Assembly: GCA_009838075.1 (NCBI GenBank)
Contig: VXSG01000011.1
Coordinates: forward strand, 20,441 to 74,847
Source of the DNA: Boseongicola sp. SB0665_bin_10
Lineage (GTDB): Bacteria > Pseudomonadota > Alphaproteobacteria > Rhodobacterales > Rhodobacteraceae
Direction of reading: 5' to 3'
DNA: 54,407 nucleotides
Shown: positions 2,497 to 36,094 of the stretch, one piece after another
How the letters are laid out: each line of letters begins with the position of its first letter
How positions within the stretch are numbered: position 1 is the first letter of the stretch
Position numbers and translations under genes: made by a program
The notes under the pieces: generated by a model
What the model saw: only the letters and a program-made list of their open reading frames with translations
Told to the model about the DNA's origin: nothing
Database searches by the model: none

Positions 2497-4034
2497 ACGC
2501 CCTTCGCGCACGTCACGACGGGCTGCCGGTCGTGCCGCACGGCGAAGGGGCCGCCTGGCACGATGCCGTTCCGGCCCCGGATCCTGCGGACGAGGCGATG
2601 GAAGACGGCGCGCGGGCCATGGCAGCGCCGCCGCCTCTTCCGGTCCCCGTGCCGCCCGTCCCGGCGAGCCTCGCCGCGGAGGACGGCACGCGGCTCGTGG
2701 CGGGGCTGGAGTGGGAGACCGCCTCCGGACCGGAGGCTCCCGTCGTGCGCGCGGACGCGCCGTCCGTCCTTCGCCTGGCCGATCGCCGCGCACGGCTCGC
2801 CCATGCCGAGGGCGAGAGCTGCGGCTCGCTGCTTCTCGCCATGGCGGAAGGGCTGGCGCGGATCGCCCCCGAGGCGTCCGGGCCGTGGGCCTTCATCGCC
2901 GAGATTCCGGATGCCGGCGACGTTCCGCTCCTCTGGATGGCGGTGGCCGACATCGCGGCAACCAAGGACGGCGGGACCGCCGCCCGGGTCACGCCGCGTC
3001 CCGGCCCGGAAGGGACGTTCGAGGACGCCGACGAGGCGCTGGCCGCACTGGAAGGGCATCTCTCCGTCACCGACGTCGCGGGCATCGCCGTGTGCTGGAC
3101 GCCGGTCCGGCCCGGAATGACGCCCGAGGACACGTTTCGCGGTCCGGTCATCCAGGGCCTCGCCCGCACCGCGCCGGACGTGCCGCTCCACGACGTCGAG
3201 CCGGCCGCCGGCACGCCCGCCTTCCTTCCTCCAGGGCGGGTGCCGGTCCGGCTGCTTGGCGGGCTTGGCATCGCTGGCGCGGCGGTGACGGCCGTCGTCC
3301 TTTACGTCGTGCCGGCCGTGCAGGCGCTGGTCGAGGGCCCCGCGCCGCTTCCGCCCGAGACCGTCGCGGTCGCGATCCCGCCCGGCGCGTTCGCAGCGGC
3401 CTGCACCGGCACCCTGGACGCATGGTGGCCCCGCGTCACCGGCTGGCGGGCCGAGAGCGCGGGCTGCGCGCTGTCCGGCCACCTGCCGCGGGCGCCCGCG
3501 CTTCCGGAGCCGCAGGCGACGGAGCGGCTGGGCCGTTCAATGGCCGTCTGGCGGCATCTGGCGCCGGAACCCGGCCGCAACGCTGTCCTGGCGCGCGCCG
3601 CGGCGGAGCAGATGATGGGGACATGGCCGCACGAGGCGCGGCTCGACGCGGACGGACTCACGCTCTGGAAGACGGCCTCCGTGCCGCTCGCGCGGGCGGA
3701 GACGGCAGGGCAGGGGACGCCTTCGCCCGGTCCCGACGCGGTCCGTTCGCGGCTCGCCGCGCTCTGGGCAGACGCGCCGAACGCCGTGACACGCGGCGGC
3801 GGCCAGGACGCGGGCGGCGAGAATCTCTTCACGGTCCGGGCGCCGGGCTCCGAACCGGCCGCCTTGGTCCTGTCCCGCGCTGCAGCGGTCCAGGGCATCG
3901 CCCCGGTCCGGCTCGTGCAGTCGGCCGACGGCGGAACGGAACTCGTCCTCGCGCCGGTCACGCCCCGGCAGGTGCCCCTCGCGCTTCTTGACGCCGCGAA
4001 AGCGCAATCACTGGATGGAGGATCGACGCGATGA
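2493..4034 (+). CDS. pilO: PilO-like type IVb pilus assembly protein
   Basis: 513 residues, ATG overlapping the pilN stop (ATGA). A long N-terminal cytoplasmic part is followed by one clear transmembrane helix at about residues 252-276 (VRLLGGLGIAGAAVTAVVLYVV) and a periplasmic C-terminal region. This bitopic layout and the position directly after the secretin match PilO (PAP_PilO) of IncI-type thin pili, an inner-membrane platform component. Identification rests on position and topology more than on conserved residues. Its stop at 4032-4034 overlaps another ATG at 4031, from which an antisense relay frame continues through the inverted gene. Confidence 0.75.
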   Translation: MNALRARHDGLPVVPHGEGAAWHDAVPAPDPADEAMEDGARAMAAPPPLPVPVPPVPASLAAEDGTRLVAGLEWETASGPEAPVVRADAPSVLRLADRRARLAHAEGESCGSLLLAMAEGLARIAPEASGPWAFIAEIPDAGDVPLLWMAVADIAATKDGGTAARVTPRPGPEGTFEDADEALAALEGHLSVTDVAGIAVCWTPVRPGMTPEDTFRGPVIQGLARTAPDVPLHDVEPAAGTPAFLPPGRVPVRLLGGLGIAGAAVTAVVLYVVPAVQALVEGPAPLPPETVAVAIPPGAFAAACTGTLDAWWPRVTGWRAESAGCALSGHLPRAPALPEPQATERLGRSMAVWRHLAPEPGRNAVLARAAAEQMMGTWPHEARLDADGLTLWKTASVPLARAETAGQGTPSPGPDAVRSRLAALWADAPNAVTRGGGQDAGGENLFTVRAPGSEPAALVLSRAAAVQGIAPVRLVQSADGGTELVLAPVTPRQVPLALLDAAKAQSLDGGSTR

Positions 4035-4054
4035 ACCAGTCAGTAGATGGAACG

Positions 4055-4327
4055 TCAGCCAGGTGGCGGAAAGAGGCGCTCGATCACGCCAAGCGCGACA
4101 GCGAGGGCGAACATCAGGCCTCCGAGACGGATGATCGTGGCCTTGGCGGAGCTGTCGATCCTGGCCGAAAGGCGCTCTTCCGCTCGCTGAAGGTCTTCCC
4201 TTGTCGCGACGCCGCGAAGGATCTCCTTGGAATGCTCAACGATCGCATCGGCTTGATTGTGATCAAGGCCGCCTTCGGCAAGGCGCTTGAACTCCTGCTT
4301 CGTGTCGAACGTGGCATCAGCCGGCAT
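4055..4327 (-). CDS. DUF1640/CCDC90-like coiled-coil membrane protein
   Basis: 90 residues. The family layout is visible: a head motif (FDTKQEFKRLAEGGLDHNQADAI), a neck ending GVATREDL, a short coiled-coil stalk, and a C-terminal transmembrane anchor at about residues 67-85 (IRLGGLMFALAVALGVIERL). The order head-neck-stalk-anchor is known for the bacterial relatives of MCUR1; a bacterial function is not established. It lies on the opposite strand between pilO and an exported-protein gene and has its own promoter-like block at 4358-4387. At least three other genes in the window carry the same head motif. Confidence 0.8.
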   Translation of the reverse strand: MPADATFDTKQEFKRLAEGGLDHNQADAIVEHSKEILRGVATREDLQRAEERLSARIDSSAKATIIRLGGLMFALAVALGVIERLFPPPG

Positions 4328-4357
4328 TCCAGAAAATCCCTTCCTGTACTTGCACTC

Positions 4358-4387
4358 AACGTAGCGCCCTTCGCGCGGAATTTCCAG
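4358..4387 (-). promoter_or_regulatory. Shared promoter-like block upstream of the inverted DUF1640 gene
   Basis: Read on the minus strand, this 30-base block begins CTGGAAATTCCGCGCGA and ends CTACGTT. It aligns without gaps with 10057-10086 and 28624-28653, which lie upstream of two other inverted DUF1640-type genes. The common core is TGGMAATYCSGCRCGA, then about 11 bases, then an A/T-richer hexamer. I read it as a -35/-10 promoter carried by the cassette. Confidence 0.5.
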
Positions 4388-4464
4388 TCCGCGTTACGAC
4401 ATGCGCTGCCGGCCGATCTCCTCGGCGTAGCAGCAGCCGAAAACCCGGACGGAGGGCCGGCGCG

Positions 4465-6594
4465 ATGACCCACGGAACGAAGATGACACGAAATGCGGGA
4501 CGGGCGGCAATTTACACGCGGCGGCGCCTGCGCGTCACGACGGCCCTGGCGCTGGTCGCCTTCTCCGCGATGCCTCTCGCCACGCTTCCGTCCCCGGCGC
4601 CTGCCCAGGCCGCGCAGGGCGGCACGCTCGGGATCGACTGCGACAAGCCGCGCTACAACGCCGAGGGCAAGCTGATCCTCGATTTCACGGACGGCGCCCG
4701 GCAGGCGATCTGCGAGGCCTACCGCACGACGGCGCTCACCTACGCGAACAACGTCATCGAGACCGCTAACCGGCTGCGCCTCGCGCTCCAGACGCTTCCC
4801 CCGCCCGTGTGGGAGGACCTGGTCGAGCATCTCCGCACGGACGACGACGTCGCGGACTGGACGTTTACGGACGCCGTCGCCATGGGGCGCCTGCAGGCAC
4901 TGAGCACGGCCGCGCCGCAGGCGGTGAGCCGCGACGGCCAGACGACGTCGAGCGGCGCGCACGGGGTGGCCACGCACTGGCGGAACGGCATGCTTGCCGC
5001 AAGCGGCATAGGGGCCGACTGGCACCCGCACATCCGGGCGCGGGCCTGCGGCTTCGACGCGAACGACATGCCCGTCAGGGGCGCGGTCGTCCTGGTCTGG
5101 CTCGACCCCGGCATCGTCCGCGACAGCTGGACGTCCCGGATGGTGCAGCGCACGGCGCTGGCCTGGCACGAGCGCCGGTCCGACCGGAGCGCCGCGACCA
5201 GCAAGGTGCCGCACGTCCTGACCGCCGCCAACCGGATCACCGATGCGCGGGGACGCACCCGCGAGGTGACCGGCAACGCCGCCATATGGACCTGCCTCGA
5301 CACCGTGCCCGTCGGCGCGCTGGTCGAGCGCGTCACGCTCAGGCAGCCCCGCAGGGGCGGCGAGCGCGCGCTCCGGTGCGAGGACCCGACGGAGATCGGA
5401 AGCCGGAAGCTCGTCTGGGAGCGCCGGGGCGGCGTCTACGTCGTGCCGGCCTTCGCCGTGCTCGCGGACGGCAGCGACCACCCGGACCGCGGCGAGCCGC
5501 TGCTCGGGCAGTCCCCGGACCTGCCGCTCGTCACCGAGGAGCCGGACCCGGCGAGCGCGACGCCCCAGCCCGGCGAGTTCCTGCGCCTTGGCTCCTCCTG
5601 CCGCCCGCCGCGCTGGCTTGACGCGGTGCGGCCGCAGGACTGTCCGGCCGAGATCAACGGCGTCGCCGTGACGGGCACCCATGTCCGGCGGTTCCGGTTC
5701 CGGGAGACGCAAAGCGATCCCGTCGACCCGTTCCGCGTCGACTGGGAGCCGGTGATGCCGGACCCGCTGGACCCGGGCAGCGAGCTGGGCATCGTGGTCC
5801 CTTCCGGCGTCCAGCATCCGGAATGGGCGTCGGTCACGGTCTTCTGCGACAGCATACCCCCTTCGGACGCGCCGCCGGTTCCGCCGCGCGTGAACGACTG
5901 GACGCCGGACAGTTGCCCGACGCAATGGGGCGGGCGGTTCGACCAGGGCGAACGCCTCGGCTACACGCAGCACTTCGACTACCCGGCAAGCTGGAACACG
6001 AGCGGCGTCAAGCGCGACGAGGCGATCCGAACCGTCGACGACGACTGCTTCAACCCGGTCGCGCAGTCGGGGACGCAGAAGCGCCCCCGCAGGAACTGTC
6101 CGGCGGGCCAGGTCGGCGCCACCATCGAGGCGCGGAGCTTCAGCTGGTGGAACCGCGAGTGGGCCGTGCCGGTTCGCCACGCAGGCGGGACAGAGGGGAA
6201 CCGCTCGCTCGGTCAGGCGGCCGCGGCGTACGACGCGAACCCGTCGCAGTCCGGGCTCGACACCTGGGACATCGTGACGCTGGTGCAGGACTGGCACGTC
6301 GTCGCGAACACCTGCCGGACGCCGTCCTCGGGCGGCAACGGAAACGGCGGGAGCAACGGCAACAGCGGCGGCTCATATGACGTGGACGGCGACGGGGTCG
6401 GCGACTTCGACAACGAGGCGGACGCGAACGCGTACAACGAGCATTTCGGCACGCCGGGTTCCACGGTGCAGGAGGTCGACAACTGCGGCGACTGCGAGGG
6501 GCACGGTGGCTCGGAGCGGCCTCCGTCGCGACCGACACCACCGTCGGACGACGATGACGATGATTCAGGCAGCGGAGGCGGCGGATGGGGATGA
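4465..6594 (+). CDS. Cysteine-rich exported protein, paralog A
   Basis: 709 residues with a signal peptide (ALALVAFSAMPLATLPSPAPAQA, cleavage near AQAAQG). The mature protein has many cysteines spread along its length, so a disulfide-bonded secreted protein is likely. I do not recognise the family. The first roughly 460 residues are almost identical to the protein at 24003-26294; the C-termini differ but share a CPAG..G.I..R.F.W.NR.WAVP motif. Here the tail has a DVDGDGVGDFD calcium-binding-type loop (about 639-649), Gly/Asn-rich stretches and an acidic Asp run. Its place in the pilus operon suggests a pilus-associated or surface protein, possibly an adhesin (inference). Confidence 0.85.
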   Translation: MTHGTKMTRNAGRAAIYTRRRLRVTTALALVAFSAMPLATLPSPAPAQAAQGGTLGIDCDKPRYNAEGKLILDFTDGARQAICEAYRTTALTYANNVIETANRLRLALQTLPPPVWEDLVEHLRTDDDVADWTFTDAVAMGRLQALSTAAPQAVSRDGQTTSSGAHGVATHWRNGMLAASGIGADWHPHIRARACGFDANDMPVRGAVVLVWLDPGIVRDSWTSRMVQRTALAWHERRSDRSAATSKVPHVLTAANRITDARGRTREVTGNAAIWTCLDTVPVGALVERVTLRQPRRGGERALRCEDPTEIGSRKLVWERRGGVYVVPAFAVLADGSDHPDRGEPLLGQSPDLPLVTEEPDPASATPQPGEFLRLGSSCRPPRWLDAVRPQDCPAEINGVAVTGTHVRRFRFRETQSDPVDPFRVDWEPVMPDPLDPGSELGIVVPSGVQHPEWASVTVFCDSIPPSDAPPVPPRVNDWTPDSCPTQWGGRFDQGERLGYTQHFDYPASWNTSGVKRDEAIRTVDDDCFNPVAQSGTQKRPRRNCPAGQVGATIEARSFSWWNREWAVPVRHAGGTEGNRSLGQAAAAYDANPSQSGLDTWDIVTLVQDWHVVANTCRTPSSGGNGNGGSNGNSGGSYDVDGDGVGDFDNEADANAYNEHFGTPGSTVQEVDNCGDCEGHGGSERPPSRPTPPSDDDDDDSGSGGGGWG
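4699..5439 (+). repeat. 741-bp tract identical to 24243-24983
   Basis: Compared line by line, these 741 bases match 24243-24983 with no difference and a constant offset of 19,544. Differences appear on both sides: a C/G change at 4698, several substitutions from 5440 onward, then complete divergence in the tails. Identity at synonymous sites with abrupt edges indicates recent gene conversion or very recent partial duplication. Confidence 0.9.
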
Positions 6595-8435: not shown

Positions 8436-9100
8436 GACGCGGCCGCCGCGACATGTCCCCGCCGGCCTTCCGCAGGACGGTCGCCACGCTGGCCGTCGCG
8501 GCCCTCCACGCGACCGCGGCTCCTGCGGCGTCGCCGCCTGGACCCGGCTCTCCCGAAGCCTGGCTCGACGGCGTCGAGCGCAGGCTCGTCGGCCTGAGCG
8601 GCCTGCCGTTCGAGGTGCGCGGCCCGTCCGGCGCGCGCACGGGGCGTTTCGTCTTCTACGCGCCGCTCGCCACGATCTGGCGCCTCTCGGGGTCCGGCCC
8701 GGAGGTGAGCCGCGCGGGCAGGGTGAGGGCGATCGTCACGGATCGGGGCCACTTTGCGGCCGTGTTCTGGGGGCGTGGGGAAATCGCCAGCCTCGCGTGG
8801 CCCGATGCGCTTCCCGACATCGTCCCGTCCGGAGACGCGGCCCATCCGCTCGCCGAATTCCACGACCGGCTTCTCTCCCTGCCGCTCGGATCGCCGCTCG
8901 GGGACCTGCCGGCCGGCAGCCGGTTCGTTCCTGTCGTCGCAAGCGGGCCGGGCGGGATCGTGGAGCGTCCCGACACACCGGGGCGGGTCACGATCTGGGA
9001 GAGCCTCGGCGACCGGATCGCGGTCACGCATCCGGACGGCGCCCGCACCGTACACGCCTGGCGCGAAGTGGACGCCGCGCTGGAAGGGGGCGCGGAATGA
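8432..9100 (+). CDS. Exported hypothetical protein
   Basis: About 222 residues from GTG 8432, which overlaps the lipoprotein stop (GTGA); ATG 8453 is an alternative. Residues about 8-32 form a signal peptide (VATLAVAALHATAAPAA). The mature part is probably periplasmic and of unknown family. Its stop overlaps an ATG at 9097, the coupled start of a frame that runs antisense through three inverted genes and in frame into PilP. Confidence 0.75.
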   Translation: MRRGRRDMSPPAFRRTVATLAVAALHATAAPAASPPGPGSPEAWLDGVERRLVGLSGLPFEVRGPSGARTGRFVFYAPLATIWRLSGSGPEVSRAGRVRAIVTDRGHFAAVFWGRGEIASLAWPDALPDIVPSGDAAHPLAEFHDRLLSLPLGSPLGDLPAGSRFVPVVASGPGGIVERPDTPGRVTIWESLGDRIAVTHPDGARTVHAWREVDAALEGGAE

Positions 9101-9110
9101 ACGGAACGTT

Positions 9111-9386
9111 TCAGGTCAGGACGCGGAGCGCGGTCTCCGGCGCCTTGTCGAGCACTCGCAGCAGCGCGCGCGCGGCGCCGGTCGGCCCGCGCCTTCCCTG
9201 TTCCCAGTTGCGGATCGTCGCGGGCGACACGCGGATGCACCGCGCCATGTCCTGCATGGCCTCGTCCTCCCGTTCCTCCAGCGCGATGTCGGCCTCCGAG
9301 GTGGCGTCCACCCTTTCAGGGTCGATCCGGCCCCTTGGAAACGTGGACGGATGGTTGAGGTCGATCGTGACGCGTGTCATGGGCAT
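9111..9386 (-). CDS. HTH antitoxin-type regulator (NadS/HigA-like)
   Basis: 91 residues from ATG 9386; the frame is open up to 9437. The C-terminal half is a helix-turn-helix: MQDMARCIRVSPATIRNWEQ followed by GRRGPTGAARALLRVLDKAPE, the pattern of NadS/HigA antitoxins. The acidic segment before it is also typical. No toxin gene adjoins it: the next minus genes upstream are a coiled-coil membrane protein and a DUF1640-type head protein. It may be an orphan antitoxin or a regulator of the inverted cassettes. Last of three genes in this minus cluster. Confidence 0.75.
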   Translation of the reverse strand: MPMTRVTIDLNHPSTFPRGRIDPERVDATSEADIALEEREDEAMQDMARCIRVSPATIRNWEQGRRGPTGAARALLRVLDKAPETALRVLT

Positions 9387-9450
9387 GTTCCGCGACTTCT
9401 TTCCGGATGGCCGGCGAGACGTGCGGGACCGGCTCATGCCGCGGCAGGCT

Positions 9451-9729
9451 TCAGAACGGCCAGCGGATCAGGAAGCCGAGGACAACCGTGGCGGCGATCC
9501 AGAGACCGATCTGCCAGCGCAGGTTGTCCTTGTCACGCCTGGCGGCTTCCGTGTCGCGCCGAGCCATGCCTTCCGAGAGCCGGGCGTCCCTCTCCGCCAG
9601 ACGAGCGTCTCTTTCCGCCTGTCGGGCGTCTCTCTCCGCCATCTTGCGCTCCAGGCGCTCCAGGGAGGTGTCGGTCTTGCGCTCCATCCGCTCCAAGGCG
9701 GTCTCATAGGTCGCCTGATGCGTGTTCAT
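9451..9729 (-). CDS. Coiled-coil protein with C-terminal membrane anchor
   Basis: 92 residues. A long charged coiled coil (MERKTDTSLERLERKMAERD, then an AERDAR(Q/L) heptad repeated three times at the DNA level in about 21-base units) leads to a C-terminal transmembrane helix (IGLWIAATVVLGFLIRWPF). This is the stalk-anchor half of the DUF1640 architecture without the head. The head-type gene 9757-10026 ends 27 bases upstream on the same strand, so together they look like a split DUF1640 gene. Confidence 0.7.
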   Translation of the reverse strand: MNTHQATYETALERMERKTDTSLERLERKMAERDARQAERDARLAERDARLSEGMARRDTEAARRDKDNLRWQIGLWIAATVVLGFLIRWPF

Positions 9730-9756
9730 GCGCTCCTCCAGAACGGCGCGTGCGCC

Positions 9757-10026
9757 TTACGCCGCCTTGTCGAGATCGTCTTCAGGCGTCGGAATCCCGG
9801 TGAGCGCCTCGAAGCAGACGTGAACCACGGCACGGGCCTGGGTTTCCGTGAAGTCCGCGTCGCGAAGGCGCTGAAAGTGCTTCAGGACGTCGAAGGTCAT
9901 GGCCGATCCCCGTCTGCTCCACACGCTGGCATCATGGCACAGGTCGACAAGGCATCTTGCCTGCGAATCCGGGATTCCGACGTCGAGAAACGTCCGAAAC
10001 CACTTCTGCGTATCGTAAAGGGGCAT
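9757..10026 (-). CDS. DUF1640-type head protein with duplicated head motif
   Basis: 89 residues from ATG 10026; an internal ATG at 9900 could also serve. It carries two successive copies of the family head motif, YDTQKWFRTFLDVGIPDSQA and FDVLKHFQRLRDADFTETQA, but no stalk or membrane anchor, which appear in the next gene (9451-9729). A promoter-like block shared with two other inverted cassettes lies at 10057-10086. Function unknown. Confidence 0.65.
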   Translation of the reverse strand: MPLYDTQKWFRTFLDVGIPDSQARCLVDLCHDASVWSRRGSAMTFDVLKHFQRLRDADFTETQARAVVHVCFEALTGIPTPEDDLDKAA

Positions 10027-10056
10027 GACCTGAGACCTCTCCTTGGCGACCTCTCC

Positions 10057-10086
10057 AGAATTGCGCCTTTCGTGCCGGATTGCCAG
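10057..10086 (-). promoter_or_regulatory. Shared promoter-like block upstream of the inverted trio
   Basis: On the minus strand the block starts CTGGCAATCCGGCACGA and ends CAATTCT. It aligns gap-free with 4358-4387 and 28624-28653. It overlaps the putative pilP start at 10072, which means the cassette boundary reaches into the host gene start. Confidence 0.5.
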
Positions 10087-11265
10087 CCCGCATCCTGCAT
10101 CGCGTTGCGGACGGCGCTCGCCGTGACGCTTGCCGCCACCCTCGCGCTCCCGTCCGCCGCCCACGCCCAGTCGCGCCCGCTCGGGGCGGCGCCGGACGAG
10201 GCGCCCGGTCTCCGCGCCACGCTGGGCGAGTGTCGCGCCGAACTCCTGCGCCAAGCCTGGAACGAGATGCTGCCGCTGGAGGCCGAGGCGGTGGAACGCG
10301 AGGTGCTCGCGCTCTGCACGGAGCGATCGGAGGCCATTGCGGGCGTCCTGGCCGCGCAATCCAGGATTGACGCGGCGCTGGCCGAGCTCAGGGCGTCGGC
10401 CGCCCCGTCCGAAACGGCCGGGAGCGCAGCCGCGGCTCCGGACAATGCGCGCATGGACCGGCTGCGCGGCGAGATCGCGGGCCTTCGCTCCCGCATCGCC
10501 CGTCTCGAGGGCCAGCCCGAGCGTCCGGAGACGGAGGCCACGCTGGCGGACCTGCGCGGCGACCTGGCAACGTCGGAGGCCGAGCTTGCGCGGCTGGAGG
10601 GCGGCGTGACGGCCTCCGGAGATCCCGATGCGCTGGCGACCGTCCCCGCCGATCCGGCGTCGGCCGAAACTGTCGGTCCTGCATCCGCCCCGGAAACCCT
10701 CCCTCCGCCGGGATCGGGCCTCCTGGTCCCGGGCCCGGAGACCGGCGCGCCCGGCCCCCAGGCAGCGGACGGCGGCATCGCCGCGGTTCCGCCAACTGAC
10801 GGTGCCGGCACGTCCCTGCCGCCGCCCGGCGCGTTGCCGCCCGGAACCTCGCCCGCCATGTCGGCTGCCGCGTCGGCGGCCCCGCAGTCCGGGCCGACCG
10901 AGTGGCGCGCGGTCTTCGCGGTGCGCCGGGACGGCGGCCCCTGGCTTGTCAGGCTGCAGGGCAGCCGCGAGATCCTGTTTCCGGTGCCGGCCTCGACCGC
11001 AGGGGACGCGGACGACACAGCTGCGATCCCATCCGGCATCGGCCGACGGTCGGTCACGGAGAGCGACCCGCCGGTCGACCTGTCCGTGGGCGACCTGCTG
11101 CCCGACGGCACGGCGCTCCTGGGCGTCACGCCCGAGGGCGTGGAGATCGGCGACCCGGACGATCCGGACGCGGAGACCGTGCTGGTCCGCTTCGCGACCG
11201 CGGGCGACAGCGAGCCCGGCGCGCTCGAATGGGACTTCCAGGTGATCGGGGGAGAACAGGAATGA
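10072..11265 (+). CDS. pilP: PilP-like type IV pilus biogenesis protein
   Basis: About 397 residues from GTG 10072, placed just before a clear signal peptide (ALRTALAVTLAATLALPSAAHA). A helical, probably coiled-coil region (about 30-180, rich in RLRGEIAGLRSRIARLEG) leads to a Pro-rich linker and a C-terminal domain of about 120 residues with EWRAVFAVRRDGGPWLVRL and VDLSVGDLLPDG. Position directly before the PilQ ATPase and the PilP-like C-terminus support the call. The start is uncertain because the frame continues open into the relay region; the native start region may have been lost to the cassette insertion. Confidence 0.7.
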   Translation: MPDCQPASCIALRTALAVTLAATLALPSAAHAQSRPLGAAPDEAPGLRATLGECRAELLRQAWNEMLPLEAEAVEREVLALCTERSEAIAGVLAAQSRIDAALAELRASAAPSETAGSAAAAPDNARMDRLRGEIAGLRSRIARLEGQPERPETEATLADLRGDLATSEAELARLEGGVTASGDPDALATVPADPASAETVGPASAPETLPPPGSGLLVPGPETGAPGPQAADGGIAAVPPTDGAGTSLPPPGALPPGTSPAMSAAASAAPQSGPTEWRAVFAVRRDGGPWLVRLQGSREILFPVPASTAGDADDTAAIPSGIGRRSVTESDPPVDLSVGDLLPDGTALLGVTPEGVEIGDPDDPDAETVLVRFATAGDSEPGALEWDFQVIGGEQE

Positions 11266-23582: not shown

Positions 23583-23588
23583 CCTCTG

Positions 23589-23617
23589 AAGATAGGATCG
23601 GCTGGCGGTTCAGGCAA
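23589..23617 (-). promoter_or_regulatory. Sigma70-like promoter for the inverted gene 23244-23582
   Basis: On the minus strand TTGCCT (23617-23612), a 17-base spacer and TATCTT (23594-23589) lie just upstream of the gene. The -10 matches the one at 23997-24002 exactly. Confidence 0.65.
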
Positions 23618-23699
23618 CCGCATTTTCCACGTCAGGGCGCCTTGCCGGGGTCCGGAAACGTGTCCCGGCTTCCTGTTCCGGGACAGCCATGCCCGGCGG

Positions 23700-23987: not shown

Positions 23988-23996
23988 GCTTCCTGC

Positions 23997-24025
23997 AAGA
24001 TAGTGCCGCGCACCGAGCCGGTCAA
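23997..24025 (-). promoter_or_regulatory. Sigma70-like promoter overlapping the start of paralog B
   Basis: On the minus strand TTGACC (24025-24020), 17 bases, TATCTT (24002-23997), then GCAGGAAGC and the ATG of 23700-23987. It occupies the place where the native start region of paralog B would be expected. Confidence 0.7.
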
Positions 24026-27631: not shown

Positions 27632-28279
27632 GTGAAGATCACGAAAACCACTGCTGCAGGGATGCTTGCGGCGCTGCTGCTTCCGGGCCTGGCGGTCGCG
27701 GAAGAGCCGATCGCGAGCGCGGAGGCCCCGGCCCTTGACGTGGAGGCGCCGTTTGCGCCCCTGCCCACCCGGGTCGTGGCGACGTTCGGCGAGGACATCC
27801 CGAGGGCGTACTGCACACCGGCGCGGCCGTGCCACATCGAGCTGGAGCCTGGGGAAAGGCTGACGGACACGCCGACTGTGGGCGACTCCTCGGACTGGGA
27901 CGTCGTGGCGAAGGTCCAGGGGCTCCCGCCGGCGGAAAGGCCGGTGATCGCGGTCAAGCCTAGATGGCGTGCGGGGACGTCGAGCCTCGTGATCCTGACG
28001 GACCGGCGGCTCTACTGGATCGAGCTTGTCAACAGCCGCAAGCGCCACACCGCGATCGTCAGCGTCACGTGGCCGGACACGGACGCCCGCGCCAGGTTGG
28101 CTGCCGCGGAGAGGCGCATCGAGGAGCTGTTGCTGGAGATCGGAAACGAGCTCTGGCGCATTCGCGTGGACGCCGAGACGCTCGGCAAGGCGCTCAATCC
28201 GGTGCAGTACCACTTCCCGGTCGAGTCGGCGCCAGGGTCGCTGGGCCCGACCGCGTCGGGCGGGAGCGGGGGCCAGTGA
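27632..28279 (+). CDS. Truncated TrbG/VirB9-like protein (N-terminal domain only)
   Basis: 215 residues from GTG 27632 after a strong AGGAGGAG ribosome site. Signal peptide (MLAALLLPGLAVA). The body matches the N-terminal domain of the full VirB9 at 31307-32788: RVVATFGEDIPRAYCTPARP, then CHIELEPGE.LTDTPTVGDS, LVILTDRRLYWIELVN. The C-terminal VirB9 domain that contacts VirB7/VirB10 is absent; a short coiled tail replaces it. Either a decayed duplicate or an alternative periplasmic subunit. Confidence 0.8.
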   Translation: MKITKTTAAGMLAALLLPGLAVAEEPIASAEAPALDVEAPFAPLPTRVVATFGEDIPRAYCTPARPCHIELEPGERLTDTPTVGDSSDWDVVAKVQGLPPAERPVIAVKPRWRAGTSSLVILTDRRLYWIELVNSRKRHTAIVSVTWPDTDARARLAAAERRIEELLLEIGNELWRIRVDAETLGKALNPVQYHFPVESAPGSLGPTASGGSGGQ

Positions 28280-28323
28280 TGCTGATGCCACGCCTCTCCC
28301 CTGCCCTCGTGCTGCCCGCGGCC

Positions 28324-28593
28324 TCAGCGGCTGATGATCAATGCCGTGATCGCGATGTTCAGGGAGATCCCTGCCGCCATGACAACGCCGATGCTGATCG
28401 TCATGTCTTTCTGGAGGCCCTCTATGTCTTTCCGGATGCTCTCGACCGCGTGCTGGAGATCGTCCCTTGCAACGATCCTCTCACCGAGAATCTGGGCGTT
28501 CTCTTCCGCAAGCGCCCTGGCTTGCACCTCGTCAAATCCGGCTTCGCGGTAATGCTCGACGGCCTTCGTGGTGTCGTAGACAATTGCGGACAT
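28324..28593 (-). CDS. DUF1640/CCDC90-like coiled-coil membrane protein
   Basis: 89 residues from ATG 28593. Head motif YDTTKAVEHYREAGFDEVQA, neck ending VARDDLQ, stalk (ESIRKDIEGLQKDM) and C-terminal transmembrane anchor (ISIGVVMAAGISLNIAITAL). A complete, compact head-neck-stalk-anchor protein, closest in layout to 4055-4327. It sits between the truncated TrbG and the nuclease with the shared promoter-like block at 28624-28653. Confidence 0.82.
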   Translation of the reverse strand: MSAIVYDTTKAVEHYREAGFDEVQARALAEENAQILGERIVARDDLQHAVESIRKDIEGLQKDMTISIGVVMAAGISLNIAITALIISR

Positions 28594-28623
28594 AGCTGGC
28601 GATGCTTCCTTGCTCGCGCATCA

Positions 28624-28653
28624 AACATAGGACGGCTCGCGCCGAATTGCCAT
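28624..28653 (-). promoter_or_regulatory. Shared promoter-like block upstream of the inverted DUF1640 gene
   Basis: On the minus strand it begins ATGGCAATTCGGCGCGA and ends CTATGTT, giving a TATGTT -10 about 30 bases before the gene. Aligns gap-free with 4358-4387 and 10057-10086. Confidence 0.55.
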
Positions 28654-28662
28654 ATTCGCGTC

Positions 28663-29379
28663 GTGGGGCGCATTTTCCCTGCCCTCGTGCTGTTAGCGGT
28701 CCTCGCCTGCTCTTGGACGCCGTCCGCCGTGGTCGCGCAGGACGTGGTGTCAGGCCCCGCCCGCGTGATCGACGGCGACACGGTCGAGATCCGGGGCCGG
28801 CGCGTCCGCCTGCACGGCATCGACGCTCCGGAGAGCACCCAGACGTGCACGGACGTGGCGGGCCGGACCTACGGCTGCGGACGGGTCGCCACGGCCGCGC
28901 TTGCATCAATGGTCGGCCACGCGACCGTGACCTGCCAGGCGCGGGACACGGACCGCTACGGTCGCCTGGTCGCGGCCTGCTTCCGGGACGGCGTCGACCT
29001 CAACGCCCTGATGGTCTCGAACGGCCATGCGATGGCTTACCGGCGCTTCAGCCGCGACTACGTCGCACACGAGGACGCGGCCCGCGCCCGTCGCCTCGGG
29101 GTCTGGCAGGGCCGTTTCGAGGCGCCCTGGGACTGGCGTCGGACGCAAGGCGGTGGAAGCTCGCCCTCCCCGTCTTCGCGCCGCGACCCGGCCGCGTCCG
29201 GCAACGAGCGCCGCGACTGCGTGATCAAGGGCAACGTCAGCCGCTCCGGCGCCAGAATCTACCACGTCCCGGGTGGCGCGTCCTACGACGCGACGCGGAT
29301 TTCCGAGGACAAGGGCGAACGCTGGTTCTGCTCGGAGGCGGAGGCGCGCGACGCCGGCTGGCGGAGGGCGCGAAGATGA
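28663..29379 (+). CDS. Secreted thermonuclease-like nuclease (SNase family)
   Basis: 238 residues from GTG 28663. Signal peptide (IFPALVLLAVLACSWTPSAV). SNase core with the expected acidic and Arg residues: ARVIDGDTVEIRGRRVRLHG, IDAPE, then DRYGRLVAACF and GVDLNALMVSNGHA. The C-terminal segment (CVIKGNVSRSGARIYHVPGG, GERWFCSEAEARDAGW) is the domain often fused to SNases in plasmids. It would act in the periplasm or outside the cell; the role in a transfer region is unknown. Confidence 0.88.
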   Translation: MGRIFPALVLLAVLACSWTPSAVVAQDVVSGPARVIDGDTVEIRGRRVRLHGIDAPESTQTCTDVAGRTYGCGRVATAALASMVGHATVTCQARDTDRYGRLVAACFRDGVDLNALMVSNGHAMAYRRFSRDYVAHEDAARARRLGVWQGRFEAPWDWRRTQGGGSSPSPSSRRDPAASGNERRDCVIKGNVSRSGARIYHVPGGASYDATRISEDKGERWFCSEAEARDAGWRRARR

Positions 29380-30005
29380 GCGCGGCGACCCTGATCGGGA
29401 TTCCGGTCGCTGGCGCCGGTTGCGGCGCATCAGCCGTCTCCGGACTCCGGATCCCGCGGCATGAAGCGCACGACGACGGCGGCCAGGACCACGGCAAGAA
29501 CACCCAGCGTGCAGAGCGCGGGCACGAGGCCGAAGAGCGCCCAGATGCCCGCTGCGGGCAGCGTGACGGCCGCGACGGCCGCGACCCTGGCCAGCAGCAC
29601 GGACACCGGCGACGGCGGGTCGTCGTAGCCGACGAAGGCCAGGGGCGGAAGCGTCGGGTCGGGCAGGACGTCGGGCATGTCCCTGGGATACCGGGCGGAC
29701 TCGAACAGCACGGCGAACCAGAACGGGTCGTGCGCCGCGATGCGGCGGAGCACCATGACGCCCGCGCCCGCGAGCATGAAGCCGCCGATCGCGCCCGGAA
29801 TCGTGAGGCCGAAGCCCGCGACGGTCACGAAGGCCGCCGCCCCCACCACGGCGAGGAACGGCAACCGCTCGCAGCCGAGGATCTGCGGGGGCCGCAGCAT
29901 CGCCTCGTCGATGGTGCCGTAAGGTTGGTCATCCACTCTTTCGCCCTCCTTCGCGCGGACATCCATCACCAGGCGAGGGGCACGTGTCAATGGCCGACAG
30001 CATGA
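29376..30005 (+). other. Antisense relay frame through inverted virB3
   Basis: 209 codons open from ATG 29376 (overlapping the nuclease stop) to TGA 30003-30005, which overlaps an ATG of virB11 (30002). Codon-aligned antisense to virB3. The peptide is His/Arg/Glu-rich antisense noise. Confidence 0.5.
29430..29936 (-). CDS. virB3: VirB3/TrbD-like type IV secretion protein, inverted
   Basis: 168 residues from GTG 29936, chosen for its AAGGAGG ribosome site; the frame is open to a TTG at 29990. An N-terminal RPPQILGCERLPFL and two membrane helices (FLAVVGAAAFVTVAGFGLTI, GAIGGFMLAGAGVMVLRRIA) are followed by HDPFWFAVLFESARYPRDMP, the DP.......RY VirB3/TrbD signature. Two further helices extend the C-terminus beyond the usual 90-110 residues. 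VirB3 is an inner-membrane partner of VirB4. It is encoded against the rest of the trb operon, which is unusual. I see no other VirB3 gene. Confidence 0.78.
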   Translation of the reverse strand: MDDQPYGTIDEAMLRPPQILGCERLPFLAVVGAAAFVTVAGFGLTIPGAIGGFMLAGAGVMVLRRIAAHDPFWFAVLFESARYPRDMPDVLPDPTLPPLAFVGYDDPPSPVSVLLARVAAVAAVTLPAAGIWALFGLVPALCTLGVLAVVLAAVVVRFMPRDPESGDG

Positions 30006-31310: not shown

Positions 31311-32788
31311 GGCGCTTCCCGCCCTTCACGGAACCGCTTCCGCGCCGTGTCGCGGCGTCCGCGCTCGCGTGGGCGATCCTGGCCGGTGCCGCGCCGGCGC
31401 AGGATCCGGATCCGGACGGCATCGGCGCCGGCCTCCTGGACATCGCCCGGGAAGCGCTGCCCGCCGGGCGGCCGGCGACGCCGGATGCCGCGGCCCAGAA
31501 GAACGCGCGCGCGCCGGAACTGGTGGCCGTCCCGCATCCTTCCGGAGGCGCGGAGATCGTTCCCCTTGGCGATTCGTCCGGATCCGCCGCCACGCCCGCC
31601 ACGCAGGATGCCGGAACCGCGGTCGTGGCGGAGCCGCTGCCGCAAGACCGCGACCCGGCCGGGCTTTCGGCCACAGAGATGGCCGATGTCGGCACGGAGT
31701 CCGCTGGCGCGGCCGATCCCGCCGCCACGGCGTCGCCAGCCGATTCCGCTGACGGAACGGCGAGGGCGGGGGCCGAGACGACGACGCCCGCCCCTTCCGA
31801 AGGGTCATTGGAGGGTCCGGAGAAGGACGCCGTCGCGGCGAAGTCCGCCGATCCGGTGGACCTGCTGAAAGGTCTCTGGCGCGAGGCGGTGGCGTCGGGT
31901 GACACGTCGGAGGGATTCGAGACCTGGCTTTCGGCGGCGCTGAACCCGAAGCCCGAGGACCCGAGCCTTCCGGAGAGCCAGGCGGGCCGCAGCCGCGAGG
32001 TCGCGGTCGCCTGGAGCCGGCGCACCGGGCCGGTCGCGCTCGGCAAGGCGGGCCGGGTCGTGACCACCTTCGGCGAATCGATCCCCGTGGCGCACTGCTC
32101 GCCGCTGAAGGTCTGCTACATCGAGCTGGAGCCAGGCGAGACGCTGACCGACACGCCGTCGGTGGGCGACTCGCTCCGCTGGCAGGTCGCGCTCAAGGTG
32201 CAGGGCCGGAACCCGGAGACGCCGGTCCTCGAGATCAAGCCTGCGGCGGACGCCGTGGAGACCAATCTCGTCATTCCCACCGACCGGCGGCTCTACACGA
32301 TCACGCTGGTGAACGATCCCGAATTCCACACTCCGATCGTGGCTTTCCGCTGGCCGGACAGCGAGGTCCGCGCGGCCGCCGAACGCATCGAGCGGCAGAT
32401 GGCCGAGGAGCTGGCGGCGGAGGCGGCCCTCGCGGAAGAGGCGGCGGTTCGCGCGGACGTCACGGCCGCCGAGATGGCGCATTCCGGCGTGCCGACCGAA
32501 TCCGGCCCCCGCGCGGCGGAGCTGCTGGACTTCCGGTTCAAGGTCACCGGCGACGCGGCATTCCGGCCGGTCCGCGTCTTCGCGGACGGGTCCCGGACCT
32601 ACATCGACCTGCATCCGCGCTACCGCGGCCCCCTGCCCGTGATCGTCGCGGGCAAGGCCGAGGGCAACGCGGCGCTCAACACCCGCGTCTCGGCCAGCGG
32701 CAGCCGGCTGGTGGCCGACAGGGTGATCACCGACGTCTGGCTCCAGTCGGGACGCGAGCGCGTCCGGATCCGGAGGACGGCGAATTGA
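31307..32788 (+). CDS. trbG: VirB9/TrbG core-complex protein with long N-terminal extension
   Basis: 493 residues from GTG 31307 (GTGA overlap). Signal peptide ending AAPAQ, then about 200 residues of low-complexity Ala/Pro/Ser/Glu-rich sequence, then VirB9 from about 235: GRVVTTFGESIPVAHCSPLK, YIELEPGETLTDTPSVGDSL, LVIPTDRRLYTITLVND; and the C-terminal domain LLDFRFKVTG...FRPVRVFADGSRTYIDLHPRY. VirB9 forms the outer-membrane ring with VirB7 and VirB10. The disordered extension is longer than usual. Confidence 0.9.
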   Translation: MRRFPPFTEPLPRRVAASALAWAILAGAAPAQDPDPDGIGAGLLDIAREALPAGRPATPDAAAQKNARAPELVAVPHPSGGAEIVPLGDSSGSAATPATQDAGTAVVAEPLPQDRDPAGLSATEMADVGTESAGAADPAATASPADSADGTARAGAETTTPAPSEGSLEGPEKDAVAAKSADPVDLLKGLWREAVASGDTSEGFETWLSAALNPKPEDPSLPESQAGRSREVAVAWSRRTGPVALGKAGRVVTTFGESIPVAHCSPLKVCYIELEPGETLTDTPSVGDSLRWQVALKVQGRNPETPVLEIKPAADAVETNLVIPTDRRLYTITLVNDPEFHTPIVAFRWPDSEVRAAAERIERQMAEELAAEAALAEEAAVRADVTAAEMAHSGVPTESGPRAAELLDFRFKVTGDAAFRPVRVFADGSRTYIDLHPRYRGPLPVIVAGKAEGNAALNTRVSASGSRLVADRVITDVWLQSGRERVRIRRTAN

Positions 32789-33273
32789 CGATGCGCCCTT
32801 CCCTCCGGCGCGCGCCGCGCCTTGCGGCCGCAGCCGCTCTCGCGCTGCTCGCGGCGTGCTCCGGCACGGGCAGCTTCACGGAAGCGTTCCGGGGCGGCGG
32901 CGACGCGGGCCTGACCGACGTCCAGTCCTGCGCCGTCGGCTACGATCTCGCGCGCCAGGTTCACGAACGCGTGGCGCTGAGGCGAACGGTGCTGCTCGCG
33001 CCCAGGCGGGAAAGCGCCTGCGAGCGCCATGCGCTGGAGTATCTCCGCCGCACCGGCTTCCGGATCGACGGGACAGGACGCGGCGGCGTGAGTTTCGACA
33101 TCGCGGTCGACCGGATGGAGGACGGCGACGTGGCGGCGGTGGCCGAGATCGGCGGCAGCCTTCGCATCTCCAGGATGTACACGCCCGTCGCGACAGGCGT
33201 GCTCGCCGCCTCGGCCGTCACCGTGCAGCAGCTCGATCCGGACACGTACATTTCGAGGGGGGCAAGCTGGTGA
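32785..33273 (+). CDS. Conjugation lipoprotein (TrbH/VirB7-like)
   Basis: 162 residues from TTG 32785 (or ATG 32791). Lipoprotein signal with LLAAC lipobox (ALALLAACSGTG). The rest includes a small domain with GGVSFDIAVDRMEDGDVAAV. In Trb operons a lipoprotein TrbH follows trbG; this gene has that position and would serve as the VirB7-type outer-membrane anchor. Its stop overlaps a GTG at 33270 that begins a copy of the virB4 start. Confidence 0.72.
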   Translation: MTMRPSLRRAPRLAAAAALALLAACSGTGSFTEAFRGGGDAGLTDVQSCAVGYDLARQVHERVALRRTVLLAPRRESACERHALEYLRRTGFRIDGTGRGGVSFDIAVDRMEDGDVAAVAEIGGSLRISRMYTPVATGVLAASAVTVQQLDPDTYISRGASW

Positions 33274-33286
33274 CGGCCGTGCGAAG

Positions 33287-33345
33287 CTTCATCGACGTCC
33301 CGGACCGGGACGCTGCCGGCGTCCTTCTCCACGACGTCGATGAAG
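33287..33345. repeat. Inverted repeat built from the virB4 start sequence
   Basis: CTTCATCGACGTC at 33287-33299 is perfectly inverted at 33333-33345 with a 33-base loop. Read on the minus strand, the right arm gives VTNFIDVVEKD, a third version of the virB4 N-terminus. It lies downstream of the inverted gene and could form a hairpin at the end of its transcript, or be a trace of the rearrangement. Confidence 0.8.
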
Positions 33346-33392
33346 TTCGTCACGTGCACGCTCCCTTGCGGCGGTTCCAGGCGCTGCGAACG

Positions 33393-33677
33393 TCAGTGCA
33401 TGGCGGCGGCAAGTTCGGCAAGCCTTTGCAGGACGAGAACCACGAGGACGGCGCCGGCGATGAGCTTGATCCACTTGAGATCGGTGACGATCCTGGCGAA
33501 TTCGGACGTGATCCCGGCAGTGTGCGTGCTGACAGAGCCCATGTCGGCCCTGGTCTCGGCCACGCCGGTCACTCCGTCCCTGATCGCGGCGGTGATCGCC
33601 TCTGCCTGACGTTCCTCGATGCCGCTCTCCTGAAGGAGCCGCATGGTCGCCATCGTGTCGAAGGGAACGCCTGCCAT
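33393..33677 (-). CDS. DUF1640/CCDC90-like coiled-coil membrane protein
   Basis: 94 residues from ATG 33677 with a GGGAGAAA ribosome site. Head motif FDTMATMRLLQESGIEERQA, neck (GVTGVAETRADMGS), and a C-terminal transmembrane helix (WIKLIAGAVLVVLVLQRLAE). A TTGACC / 17-base / CATGTG promoter candidate lies at 33705-33733 on the minus strand, just inside the region before the virB4 start. Function unknown. Confidence 0.8.
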   Translation of the reverse strand: MAGVPFDTMATMRLLQESGIEERQAEAITAAIRDGVTGVAETRADMGSVSTHTAGITSEFARIVTDLKWIKLIAGAVLVVLVLQRLAELAAAMH

Positions 33678-33736
33678 CCGCGTTTCTCCCGGCTGTTTCC
33701 GAAACACATGAACACGCGATGCCACGGGGTCAAGCC

Positions 33737-36094
33737 ATGACCGCGCGGCGCTTCATCGACGTCCTGAACTGGGGCGCGCTGGTCGCCCCCGGCGTGATGG
33801 CCTGCAAGGACGGCTCGTTGCTGGCCGGCTGGGAAGTCGCCGGCATCGACACGGAGAGCCTGGAGCCGGACGCGCTGGCGGGGCACCTGGAGCATGTCGC
33901 CATCGGGCTGTCGAAGCTCGGCGACGGCGAGACGGTATGGTCCGTTTTCGAGCGCCGCCCCCGGGTTCCGGAGGCGGAGCCGGCAAGGTCCGGTCGCGAG
34001 GCGCTGGACGCGCTGGCGCTGGAAGCGCACCTGATGCTCGCCGACGAGGGCACGACCTGGAGCGACAGGCTGCTCCTGTTCCTCGGCTGGATGCCGGAGG
34101 CGCCGGGCAGCCTCGGCCAGACGCTGGCCGGCTTCGACGAGGCGATGGCGAGGACGGAGAGCCGTTTCGGGTCGACGTTCGGGCTTCGCCGCCTCGTGCC
34201 GGAGGGTCCGGGCGCGCCCTGCCCGTTCTGCGGCGCCCTTGCGGGCCTCCTGGGGCAGTCGCGCACCGCGCCGCGCTTCGGGGAGGACGACCTGCCCGTG
34301 GGGATGGACATGCTGCTCGGGGCCGGGGTGCGCCAGTCACGGCGCACGGGGCCGCTCACGCTCGACGGGCGCGCGATCGCCGTGCTCGCGCTGGAGGGCC
34401 TGCCCGTCACCTACGGGATCGCGCCGTTCGAGCGCTTCCAGGACCTGCCCTGCGCATTCTCCTGGGTCACGCGCTACGAGGCGCTGTCGCCGGCATCCGC
34501 ACGGCCCGCAGTGCGACGGCGGCAGCGCTTCTGGCTGCAGGGCTCGGCGGACTTCCTCGCGAACATAGGGGGCGAGAGCGCGGGCCGCCGCGACCAGTAC
34601 GGCGACGCGATGGCGGAGAGCCTCGACCCTGTCCTGGCCCGCATCTCGCGCGGCGAGGAGGGCCACGGCCATCACGTCTCCGTCTTCCTGCTGCAGGGCG
34701 AGAGCCGCGCCGCGCTGGAGCCGTCGCTTTCGCTCATCCGGTCGGCGGCGGACGACGGGCATTACGGGCTCAGGGAGGAGCGCGTCAACGCGGTCCCTGC
34801 GCTCCTGTCCGCCCTTCCCGGCCACACGACGGTGAACGCCCGCCGCGCGGTCCTGCGCGCGCAGGCGATGGCGGACCTGATGCCGGTGCGCACGATCTGG
34901 CGCGGCAGCGCCACCTGCCCCTCGCCGCGCCTGCCCGCGGGCACGCCCGCCCTGCTGGAGGCGCGGTCCAGGACGGGCGAGCACGTCCACGTCAACCTGC
35001 ACGTCGGCGACGTGGGGCACACGCTCCTTTTCGGCCCGACGGGCGCAGGCAAGTCCGTCCTCCTGGGCCGGATCGCGGCGGCATGGCTCCGCTACCCGGA
35101 CGCGCAGGTGATCTGGTTCGACCGCCAGCGGTCTTCCGCGCACGCCTGCGCGGCGCTCGGCGGCACGTTCCTGGAGCCCGGCGTGCCGGGATCGGGCGGC
35201 ATCGCGCCCTTCGCCCGCCTCGGCCGCCTGGGCGCGTCCTGGGGCCTCGCGTGGCTGACGGCTCTGGTCGAGGCCGGGCTCGGCCGTCCCTTGGCGCCCG
35301 AAGAGGCGGCGGAACTGCGCGGCGCGGTGGACTCGCTCAAGGGGACCCCGCGCCCGACGCTGCGCAACGCGTGGGAGTACGTCCAGTCCCGGCCGCTCAG
35401 GCAGGTGCTGGACGCCTGGTGCGAGGGCCCGGACGCGGGAATGTTCGACGCCGACGAGGTGGACGTGGGCGCAGCGCTGGACACGGCGCCGCTCACGGTG
35501 TTCGAGACCCACACGCTTTTCGGCGAGCGTCCCGTCGTGACGATGCTGGCGATGGACTACGTGTTCGCGGAGACGGACCGGCGCTTCGACGGGCGGCCGA
35601 CGCTCGTGGTCCTTGACGAGGCGTGGAGCTTCTTCGCCCACCCGCTCTGGATCGACCGCATCCGCAGCTGGCTCAAGGAGGGCCGGAAGCTGAACGTCGC
35701 CGTCCTGATGGCGACGCAGTCCGTGGCGGACGCGGCGCGGAGCGCGCTGACCGAGGACCTGCTTGAGAGCTGCCCGACGACGCTGTTCCTGCCCAATCCC
35801 GAGGCGGAGACGCGCGCGTCCCGCCAGCACTACGAGGCGCTGGGGCTGGAACCCGCCCAGGTCGGGCTGGTCGCGCGAATCGCGCCGAAGCGGGAGCTTT
35901 ACCTGGTGCAGCCGGGCGGCAAGCGGGTCATCAGCCTGCCGATGGGCCCCGCCGCGCTATCGATCCTTGGCCGCACCGGCGCCGACGACAGCGCCCGCGC
36001 GCTGAAGCTCCGGCCCGGCGATCCCGAGTACTGGAAGGAGGACTTCGCGAATGACACTGGAATCGACCTTGGCCGGCCGCAGGACGCGGCCTGA
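33737..36094 (+). CDS. trbE: VirB4/TrbE conjugation ATPase
   Basis: 785 residues; ATG 33737 chosen because it overlaps the relay stop and matches the duplicated start. Walker A at about 432-440 (FGPTGAGKSVLL), Walker B at about 624-634 (LVVLDEAWSFF), then RSWLKEGRKLNVAVLMATQS, the VirB4/TrbE motor signature. The N-terminal third is the VirB4 membrane-proximal domain. It energises assembly of the pilus and interacts with VirB3, here encoded upstream on the opposite strand. Confidence 0.93.
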   Translation: MTARRFIDVLNWGALVAPGVMACKDGSLLAGWEVAGIDTESLEPDALAGHLEHVAIGLSKLGDGETVWSVFERRPRVPEAEPARSGREALDALALEAHLMLADEGTTWSDRLLLFLGWMPEAPGSLGQTLAGFDEAMARTESRFGSTFGLRRLVPEGPGAPCPFCGALAGLLGQSRTAPRFGEDDLPVGMDMLLGAGVRQSRRTGPLTLDGRAIAVLALEGLPVTYGIAPFERFQDLPCAFSWVTRYEALSPASARPAVRRRQRFWLQGSADFLANIGGESAGRRDQYGDAMAESLDPVLARISRGEEGHGHHVSVFLLQGESRAALEPSLSLIRSAADDGHYGLREERVNAVPALLSALPGHTTVNARRAVLRAQAMADLMPVRTIWRGSATCPSPRLPAGTPALLEARSRTGEHVHVNLHVGDVGHTLLFGPTGAGKSVLLGRIAAAWLRYPDAQVIWFDRQRSSAHACAALGGTFLEPGVPGSGGIAPFARLGRLGASWGLAWLTALVEAGLGRPLAPEEAAELRGAVDSLKGTPRPTLRNAWEYVQSRPLRQVLDAWCEGPDAGMFDADEVDVGAALDTAPLTVFETHTLFGERPVVTMLAMDYVFAETDRRFDGRPTLVVLDEAWSFFAHPLWIDRIRSWLKEGRKLNVAVLMATQSVADAARSALTEDLLESCPTTLFLPNPEAETRASRQHYEALGLEPAQVGLVARIAPKRELYLVQPGGKRVISLPMGPAALSILGRTGADDSARALKLRPGDPEYWKEDFANDTGIDLGRPQDAA

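Follow-up and report, generated by a model that had tools for sequence, protein, structure and literature searches.

How does a long operon tolerate genes that are nested backwards within it? The question is raised by a stretch of 54,407 nucleotides from the Boseongicola sp. SB0665_bin_10 assembly GCA_009838075.1 (contig VXSG01000011.1; G000:C44:20441-74847 in the handles used here), referred to as a whole as the window. Its plus strand carries a transfer operon with VirB11-, VirB2-, VirB9-, VirB4-, VirB6- and VirD4/TraG-type genes. With genes for VirB4, VirB11, VirB2, VirB3, VirB6, a VirB9-like protein and a coupling protein, the system is of the trb/virB conjugation type, an assignment based on Pfam matches to AAA_10, T2SSE, TrbC, VirB3, TrbL, CagX and T4SS-DNA_transf. 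Many of the plus genes are joined by stop/start overlaps, which suggest that they form one operon. Between the plus transfer genes lie 13 minus-strand genes in seven clusters, the opposite orientation expected of a noncontiguous operon. The minus genes were located with our own gene finder and Pfam; 4055-4327 and 9757-10026 were missed by the gene finder, and the matches to PF07798 (CCDC90-like) all fall below the family cut-off.

A plus-strand frame, termed here a relay, crosses each of the seven inverted clusters; it starts on the upstream stop and reaches the next plus gene. Seven such open frames had been described in the first-pass annotation, and all are present as it gave them: relays 1, 3, 6 and 7 end at the next start, and relays 2, 4 and 5 continue in frame into the next protein. 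At each of the seven sites, the relay start overlaps the upstream stop, as in translational coupling. The relays are real and non-random.

The phase of the inverted genes provides the first line of evidence. Eleven of the 13 are codon-aligned with the coupled frame (binomial p = 2.1e-4; 10 of 12 and p = 5.4e-4 without the weakest gene, 9757-10026), p values that serve as a guide because genes sharing a cluster are not independent draws. The misses are 9111-9386 and 22580-22930; the earlier tally was nine of 11 small genes plus virB3. A stop-codon expectation, proposed at the same stage, was obtained by shuffling codons within the inverted genes and dinucleotides within the spacers. With random phases, the probability of an open frame at sites 1-7 was 0.095, 0.042, 0.157, 0.00025, 0.20, 0.275 and 0.295, respectively, a joint chance of ∼2.6e-9. 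With the true phases retained, the corresponding values were 0.196, 0.372, 0.468, 0.010, 0.521, 0.767 and 0.525 (product ∼7e-5).

Strict relays, present at 7/7 hand-set sites, were then compared with control junctions, all from DNA somewhat less GC-rich than the window (71% GC, against 57-65% in the 17 control stretches of this assembly that could be read; 345 kb were requested, and two further short contigs consisted of N). Under the automatic calling used for the controls, six operon junctions were obtained in the window, site 1 being uncalled, and all six carried a strict relay (p = 3e-9 against 0/75). A narrower test that allows one coupled frame to the next called gene gave 4/6 in the window and 2/75 in the controls (p = 1.3e-4); it was passed by only four sites because site 3 needs two small uncalled open reading frames (ORFs) and site 4 a hop. 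Among 64 convergent junctions of the host, a single one was open across the first inverted gene, and the phases were evenly distributed (20/22/22); none of 26 host triples was open to the next start and none held a strict relay. In a second genome, G139 (66% GC), 16 of 94 junctions were open across the first inverted gene, two of these with a start codon, and two of 49 triples were open, neither with a start codon, giving 0/49 strict relays. Around other VirB4 genes of ∼30% identity (14 stretches, 24 junctions), two junctions were open across the first inverted gene, these being one pair seen from both sides and without a start codon, and none of the 24 was open to the next plus gene. The same was true of the contig upstream of the window (L097), where 0/4 junctions were open to the next gene. 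A natural negative control lies at the end of the operon, where the first-pass annotation had placed a stop in the equivalent frame: the coupled frame that follows the last plus gene (48951-49340, plus strand; GTGA at 48954; -4.6 kcal on the scale defined below) does stop, at 49340, inside an inverted channel gene (48957-49394, minus strand; PF07885).

The relay starts are also equipped with ribosome sites. Shine-Dalgarno (SD) strength was taken as the predicted pairing to the 16S end, in kcal. At the seven relay starts, the mean is -9.4, with all values between -8.0 and -11.2, and the SD lies inside the end of the upstream gene, as coupling demands. The 14 true -4 starts of the operon have a mean of -8.4, so that the relay starts are equally strong. 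Weaker means were found at 64 host convergent stops (-3.6; p = 2e-5 against relay starts), at 179 out-of-frame ATG/GTG codons inside plus genes (-3.9; p = 1e-5) and at 94 convergent stops of G139 (-3.1; p = 1.5e-5). When relay starts of relatives are included (n = 15), the mean is -8.35 and 14/15 are at -5 or below.

Codon content points in the same direction. TTA, CTA and TCA are the codons of an inverted gene that would stop the relay, and none occurs among the 132 Leu and 59 Ser codons of the 11 aligned genes. In the seven other minus genes of the window, there are eight among 185 Leu and 83 Ser codons (p = 0.02 against the aligned genes), and host genes matched for GC at third codon positions predict 4.6-5.6 (P 0.004-0.010).

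The relays, all on the plus strand, and the inverted genes, all on the minus strand, are arranged as follows. Relay 1 (4031-4468; SD -9.3) begins with ATGA on the stop of 2493-4034 and ends on the ATGA of 4465. It crosses a phase-aligned CCDC90-like small gene (4055-4327; weak PF07798 match), which has inverted homologues in G148C306 (85%) and G006C463 (54%). Relay 2 (9097-11265; ATGA; SD -9.1) has an antisense part extending to ∼10122 and enters the 10123-11265 gene in frame. Under it lie an antitoxin-like helix-turn-helix (HTH) gene (9111-9386), which is not aligned although the relay is still open across it and which has a homologue beside a BrnT toxin in G148C654; an aligned coiled-coil gene with, by eye, a hydrophobic C terminus (9451-9729); and an aligned, weakly CCDC90-like small gene (9757-10026) for which a weak PF07798 match is the sole indication. 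Relay 3 (18058-19113; SD -8.2) runs from ATGA on the stop of 17561-18061 to the ATGA of 19110 and crosses an aligned gene of 268 amino acids without a Pfam match (18163-18969).

Site 4 is the largest. An intermediate plus ORF reached by a GTGA hop (21262-21564; SD -5.5) stands between the 21035-21265 gene and relay 4 (21561-26294; ATGA; SD -11.2), whose antisense part extends to ∼24002 before it enters the 24003-26294 gene in frame (internal start at 24003, SD +1.3). Five inverted genes are crossed: two aligned paralogues (21696-22112 and 22293-22583; 33%), a coiled-coil gene that is not aligned and has two CTA codons (22580-22930), an aligned CCDC90-like gene with an 84% homologue in G148C654 (23244-23582) and an aligned coiled-coil gene, again with a hydrophobic C terminus by eye (23700-23987). 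Relay 5 (28276-29379; SD -8.0) starts at GTGATG (28276/28279), crosses an aligned CCDC90-like small gene (28324-28593) and, after an antisense part to ∼28662, enters an SNase-domain gene in frame (internal start at 28663, SD -0.1). Relay 6 (29376-30005; ATGA; SD -10.0) crosses inverted virB3 (29430-29966; aligned; PF05101, 1.1e-6), which is likewise inverted in G150 (also matching PF05101), G149 and G036, and ends 15 nucleotides past the next start at 29990. Relay 7 (33270-33740; SD -9.7) leads from GTGA on the stop of 32791-33273 to the ATGA of virB4 (start at 33737) across an aligned CCDC90-like gene (33393-33677) with 59-60% homologues in L039 and L040. The small CCDC90-like and coiled-coil genes between 4055 and 33677 form a divergent family with several members per element, and those seen in the window are all inverted.

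Related elements offer natural experiments. A genome scan with VirB4 gave five loci, namely L039 and L040 (88%), L042/G150 (79%), L041/G149 (62%) and L043, the G036 contig (42%), and with further contigs fetched, 14 junctions could be judged. A relay is present at eight of these: G150 sites 1, 6 and 7; site 7 of L039; G148 C326 at 10087, C654 at 3052 and C306 at 3824; and G006 at 24068. Within this set, G150 site 1 and C306 run open to the contig end, and C306 and G006 24068 take two hops. It is absent from G148C326 at 7002, G006 at 27840, the virB3 sites of G149 and G036, and G000 C15 at 16592 and C37 at 4310. Homology guided the manual addition of the C654 and C306 junctions, whose inverted genes had been missed by the gene finder; excluded from the 14 were L040, where the upstream gene is off the contig and the frame is open to the next ATGA, and junctions that lacked a following plus gene or spanned >10 kb. 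At E 1e-200, the VirB4 profile matched two of 394 genomes in the family sample, G036 and the genome of the window itself, and one of 385 in the class sample, again that of the window; plasmid relatives of VirB4 were all below 60% identity (∼32% among the best matches), and viral contigs gave no match.

Site 7 is empty in G149 and G036, in which the two plus genes overlap directly (TGATG and ATGA, respectively). Its insert is a CCDC90-like gene in the window, L039 and L040, and in G150 it is an inverted hicB (PF15919, 1.3e-21) with a hicA-like frame recognized by eye. The coupled frame of the window, L039 and G150 has no stop before the virB4 ATGA, on which it ends, and the readable part of L040 is likewise open. 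Site 1 is similarly empty, with direct overlap, in G149 and, from tblastn and the sequence, in G036. In G150, a coiled-coil gene is present here in two tandem copies, spaced by 483 nucleotides, a multiple of three; the relay has no stop in either copy and shares the frame of the next gene's homologue. In G148C654, two successive -4 hops, each with an SD of -12.8, cross inverted HTH, BrnT and CCDC90-like genes (P = 0.004); the earlier hops of that contig have SDs from -7.2 to -0.9. Small modules at the operon joints of relatives include an inverted hicB with a hicA-like frame (L042 6949-7362) and an HTH-brnT module (L086 3348-3957), and window site 2 keeps the HTH gene only. Given that virB3 is inverted in the operon of all four elements in which it was seen (window 29430-29966, G150C102 3193-3708, G149C56 42796-43239 and G036C68 38951-39382), this inversion is probably older than the strict relays. 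Contigs C15 and C37 of the window's own assembly (62% GC) hold homologues of operon genes (59% and 33%) together with inverted genes lacking strict relays, and are perhaps a second transfer system.

Some of the inserts have left traces at their edges. Duplicated junction sequence was found at sites 5 and 7 and in G148C654, and more weakly at site 1 and in G006; 6/21 junction comparisons were below p 0.05, and the rest showed none. In G148C654, the HTH gene and BrnT toxin (PF04365, 1.9e-15) lie between 115-nucleotide direct repeats, ∼90% alike, that carry the SD and ATGA. At the beginning of relay 5 stands a copy of the sequence encoding the SNase N terminus, and relay 7 opens with a start like that of virB4. 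Given this duplication, some of the relay starts probably descend from earlier coupled starts, either retained or copied when the module was inserted. An imperfect palindrome at 33278-33354 has one arm resembling the virB4 start and another that reads, by eye, like a hicB N terminus; the latter is perhaps a remnant of the hicB module seen in G150. An origin of the inverted modules by transposition or through attachment (att) sites was considered and rejected: among the 20 of at least 60 direct-repeat families and 25 of 571 inverted pairs displayed in a scan of 4000-34000, there was no shared terminal element, only the duplicated junction sequence at some sites.

We propose, with a probability of about 0.55, that the relays keep the transfer mRNA translated across the inverted genes. 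Small modules (CCDC90-like genes, antitoxin-like HTH, virB3 and, in relatives, hicB and HTH-brnT) would have come to sit inverted in stop/start joints, with the SD and start on the upstream stop kept and, at some joints, present as evident copies on either side of the insert. Ribosomes finishing at the upstream stop would reinitiate on the relay, traverse the antisense of the module, and then either begin again at the next gene or continue into it. In this way, the transfer mRNA would be left without a long untranslated stretch at the inverted clusters. The selected benefit may be the delivery of ribosomes to the next gene and the shielding of the antisense RNA from Rho-dependent polarity; the latter, as the first-pass annotation had suggested, is a plausible gain. 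The proportion of C-over-G bubbles, tried as a proxy for Rho sites (0.16 of windows above 0.1 in relays, 0.08 otherwise), was too weak a measure and was dropped. Operon transcription would also oppose the inverted genes, as in noncontiguous operons (PMC7154746 and PMC11087260), and toxin-antitoxin and small membrane-type genes would be sensible cargo under such a logic. Support for the view that the frames are maintained open and ready for translation comes from the phase, the shuffles, two genome controls, the strong SD at all seven starts, the codon content of the aligned genes and persistence of the relay over differing inserts. The stronger proposal, that selection maintains the antisense of inserted genes as ribosome tracks and keeps the transfer mRNA translatable, permitting backwards nesting without downstream loss, is advanced tentatively and stands slightly short of even odds.

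Several observations weigh against these proposals. The expectation that related elements would show the same coupling held at 8/10 judgeable junctions of at least 67% GC but failed at 4/4 of 55-62% GC, where inverted genes, virB3 included, lack strict relays; this is the main result against a general need for relays. The two higher-GC junctions without a relay are G148C326 at 7002, beside cargo-like genes, and G006C463 at 27840. On the mirrored strand of the window, the coupled frame after an inverted-gene stop is open for >400 nucleotides in 6/14 cases and >600 in 3/14, in agreement with the earlier remark that high GC helps aligned antisense to stay open; GC thus makes open frames common, but not ones that combine a start with the correct phase and a correct end. 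Of seven plain gaps that contain no inverted gene, three are unbridged (after 7640, 27072 and 46942). Judged by the element's own plus genes, 1.9 TTA, CTA or TCA codons are predicted (P 0.15), and the avoidance is not significant. The relay start at G150 site 6 has a weak SD (-3.5). Ten window plus stops with neither an inverted neighbor nor a close next gene have SDs from -9.3 to +0.5, four being at -5 or below, two of which lead into strict overlaps. Reading through sites 2, 4 and 5 would bury N termini that appear, by eye, to be signal peptides. Finally, a wider definition by loose multi-hop chains (starts -12 to +10 of the stop) was rejected, with success in 5/26 host triples and, across the 15 sites to which it was applied, in 6-60% of shuffles; because such chains succeed by chance, the virB3 sites of G149 and G036, which pass them, were not counted.

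The first alternative is that the relays are a by-product: inserts landed in coupled joints, some copying the start and SD, and high GC keeps the aligned antisense open without present selection. An SD and start at the upstream stop could be explained by the direct repeats that flank the inserts of sites 1, 5 and 7, G148C654 and G006, and the open frames of the mirrored strand, the failure of relays in lower-GC relatives and the loss of codon avoidance against the element's own usage are all in its favor. By contrast, it leaves unexplained the phase of 11/13 genes, the site 4 relay over 2.4 kb of five genes and spacers (with its low probability under both random and true phases), the double chain of G148C654 and the lack of any strict relay in 75 controls. 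Moreover, starts out of use would be expected to decay, but an SD is retained at all seven relay starts of the window. We regard this explanation as unlikely, if still one to be reckoned with.

A second alternative is that the in-frame relays mainly initiate the next gene, the insert having entered its 5' end so that the relay start is the only good ribosome site and gives an N-terminal extension. The next starts met by terminating relays have SDs of -4.3 to -10.0 (n = 9), and the internal starts at in-frame relays are weaker (-5.7, +1.3, -0.1, -4.0 and +0.7; n = 5; p = 0.0025), a comparison in which some sites are homologous and from which G150C128 was left out, its internal start being undefined (candidates -4.0 and -7.3). 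Because the downstream gene's own ribosome site is weak at in-frame sites, the relay may be its initiation region there, and the SNase N-terminal copy at relay 5 and virB4-like start of relay 7 fit the same idea. As a general account it is improbable: just 3/7 window sites are covered, the apparent signal peptides (by eye) lie inside the extension, genes without an SD can still initiate, and several inverted genes are also weak in SD.

That conserved proteins are encoded by the relay frames, in overlap with the inverted genes, as the length and good starts of these frames might suggest, is very improbable. A Pfam search up to E 0.1 matched nothing in the seven plus frames except the downstream SNase. 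The inverted frame exceeds the codon-aligned antisense frame in amino acid identity in 9/9 pairwise comparisons, which are not all independent (for m9111, the codon-aligned antisense frame differs from the relay frame), and differences are commonest at the third position of the inverted gene in 9/9, although the excess is small for m33393 against L039 (23, 24, 28). At site 7, the relays that pass over the two kinds of insert are, except at their ends, unrelated to each other. The converse, in which the plus frames would be the real genes and the inverted ones artifacts, is scarcely credible, for although some inverted genes are short and without database matches, VirB3, HicB, BrnT, HTH and CCDC90-like matches fall on the minus strand, most of the inverted genes have conserved homologues and the codon-position signal is on that strand.

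Other features of the window were recorded in passing. A 300-nucleotide stretch is 94% identical between 4517-4816 and 24061-24360, a recent duplication inside the operon, and 27769-27921 resembles 32053-32205 (CagX-like) at 73%. At the left edge (1-63), ACCCGGAG occurs in ∼8 repeats. A consensus promoter scan of the minus strand over 30 kb gave two sites (expected 0.4 and 0.3 in the two parts scanned), of which only 23997-24025 stands just before an inverted gene, 23700-23987. Rfam gave no match at gathering score, NCBIfam none for 10 proteins submitted, and PADLOC one marginal match (E 0.0089), to the 433-residue inverted AAA gene of G148, with none for the other nine proteins.

Translation shields mRNA from Rho, a protection known as polarity suppression. 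Ribosomes on the antisense segments of the window would bring the same benefit. The relay starts resemble those of translational coupling (ATGA, GTGA and TGATG) in overlapping the upstream stop and in SD strength, but here the coupled frame is the antisense of other genes rather than a conserved protein gene. Noncontiguous operons likewise nest genes of opposite orientation, as exemplified by menE-menC-MW1733-ytkD-MW1731 of Staphylococcus aureus (PMC7154746) and the tha/ith prophage operon (PMC11087260). In the former, the segment opposite the inverted gene is described as untranslated (PMC7154746), whereas the window has an SD, a start and a frame open to the next gene in that segment at 7/7 sites, from which translation is predicted, and the nesting, in seven clusters, occurs in a conjugation operon. 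A literature search returned nothing that we recognized as describing translated frames across inverted genes. The window operon is, as judged from these predicted features, a new variant of the noncontiguous operon with putatively translated antisense frames.

If the frames are used, they would answer how a long operon tolerates genes nested backwards, a problem posed by noncontiguous operons, and would give antisense reading frames a role other than protein coding, one open to selection. Should the antisense frames indeed be maintained as ribosome tracks, genes could be nested backwards in the transfer operon, and opposed when it fires, without breaking downstream expression.

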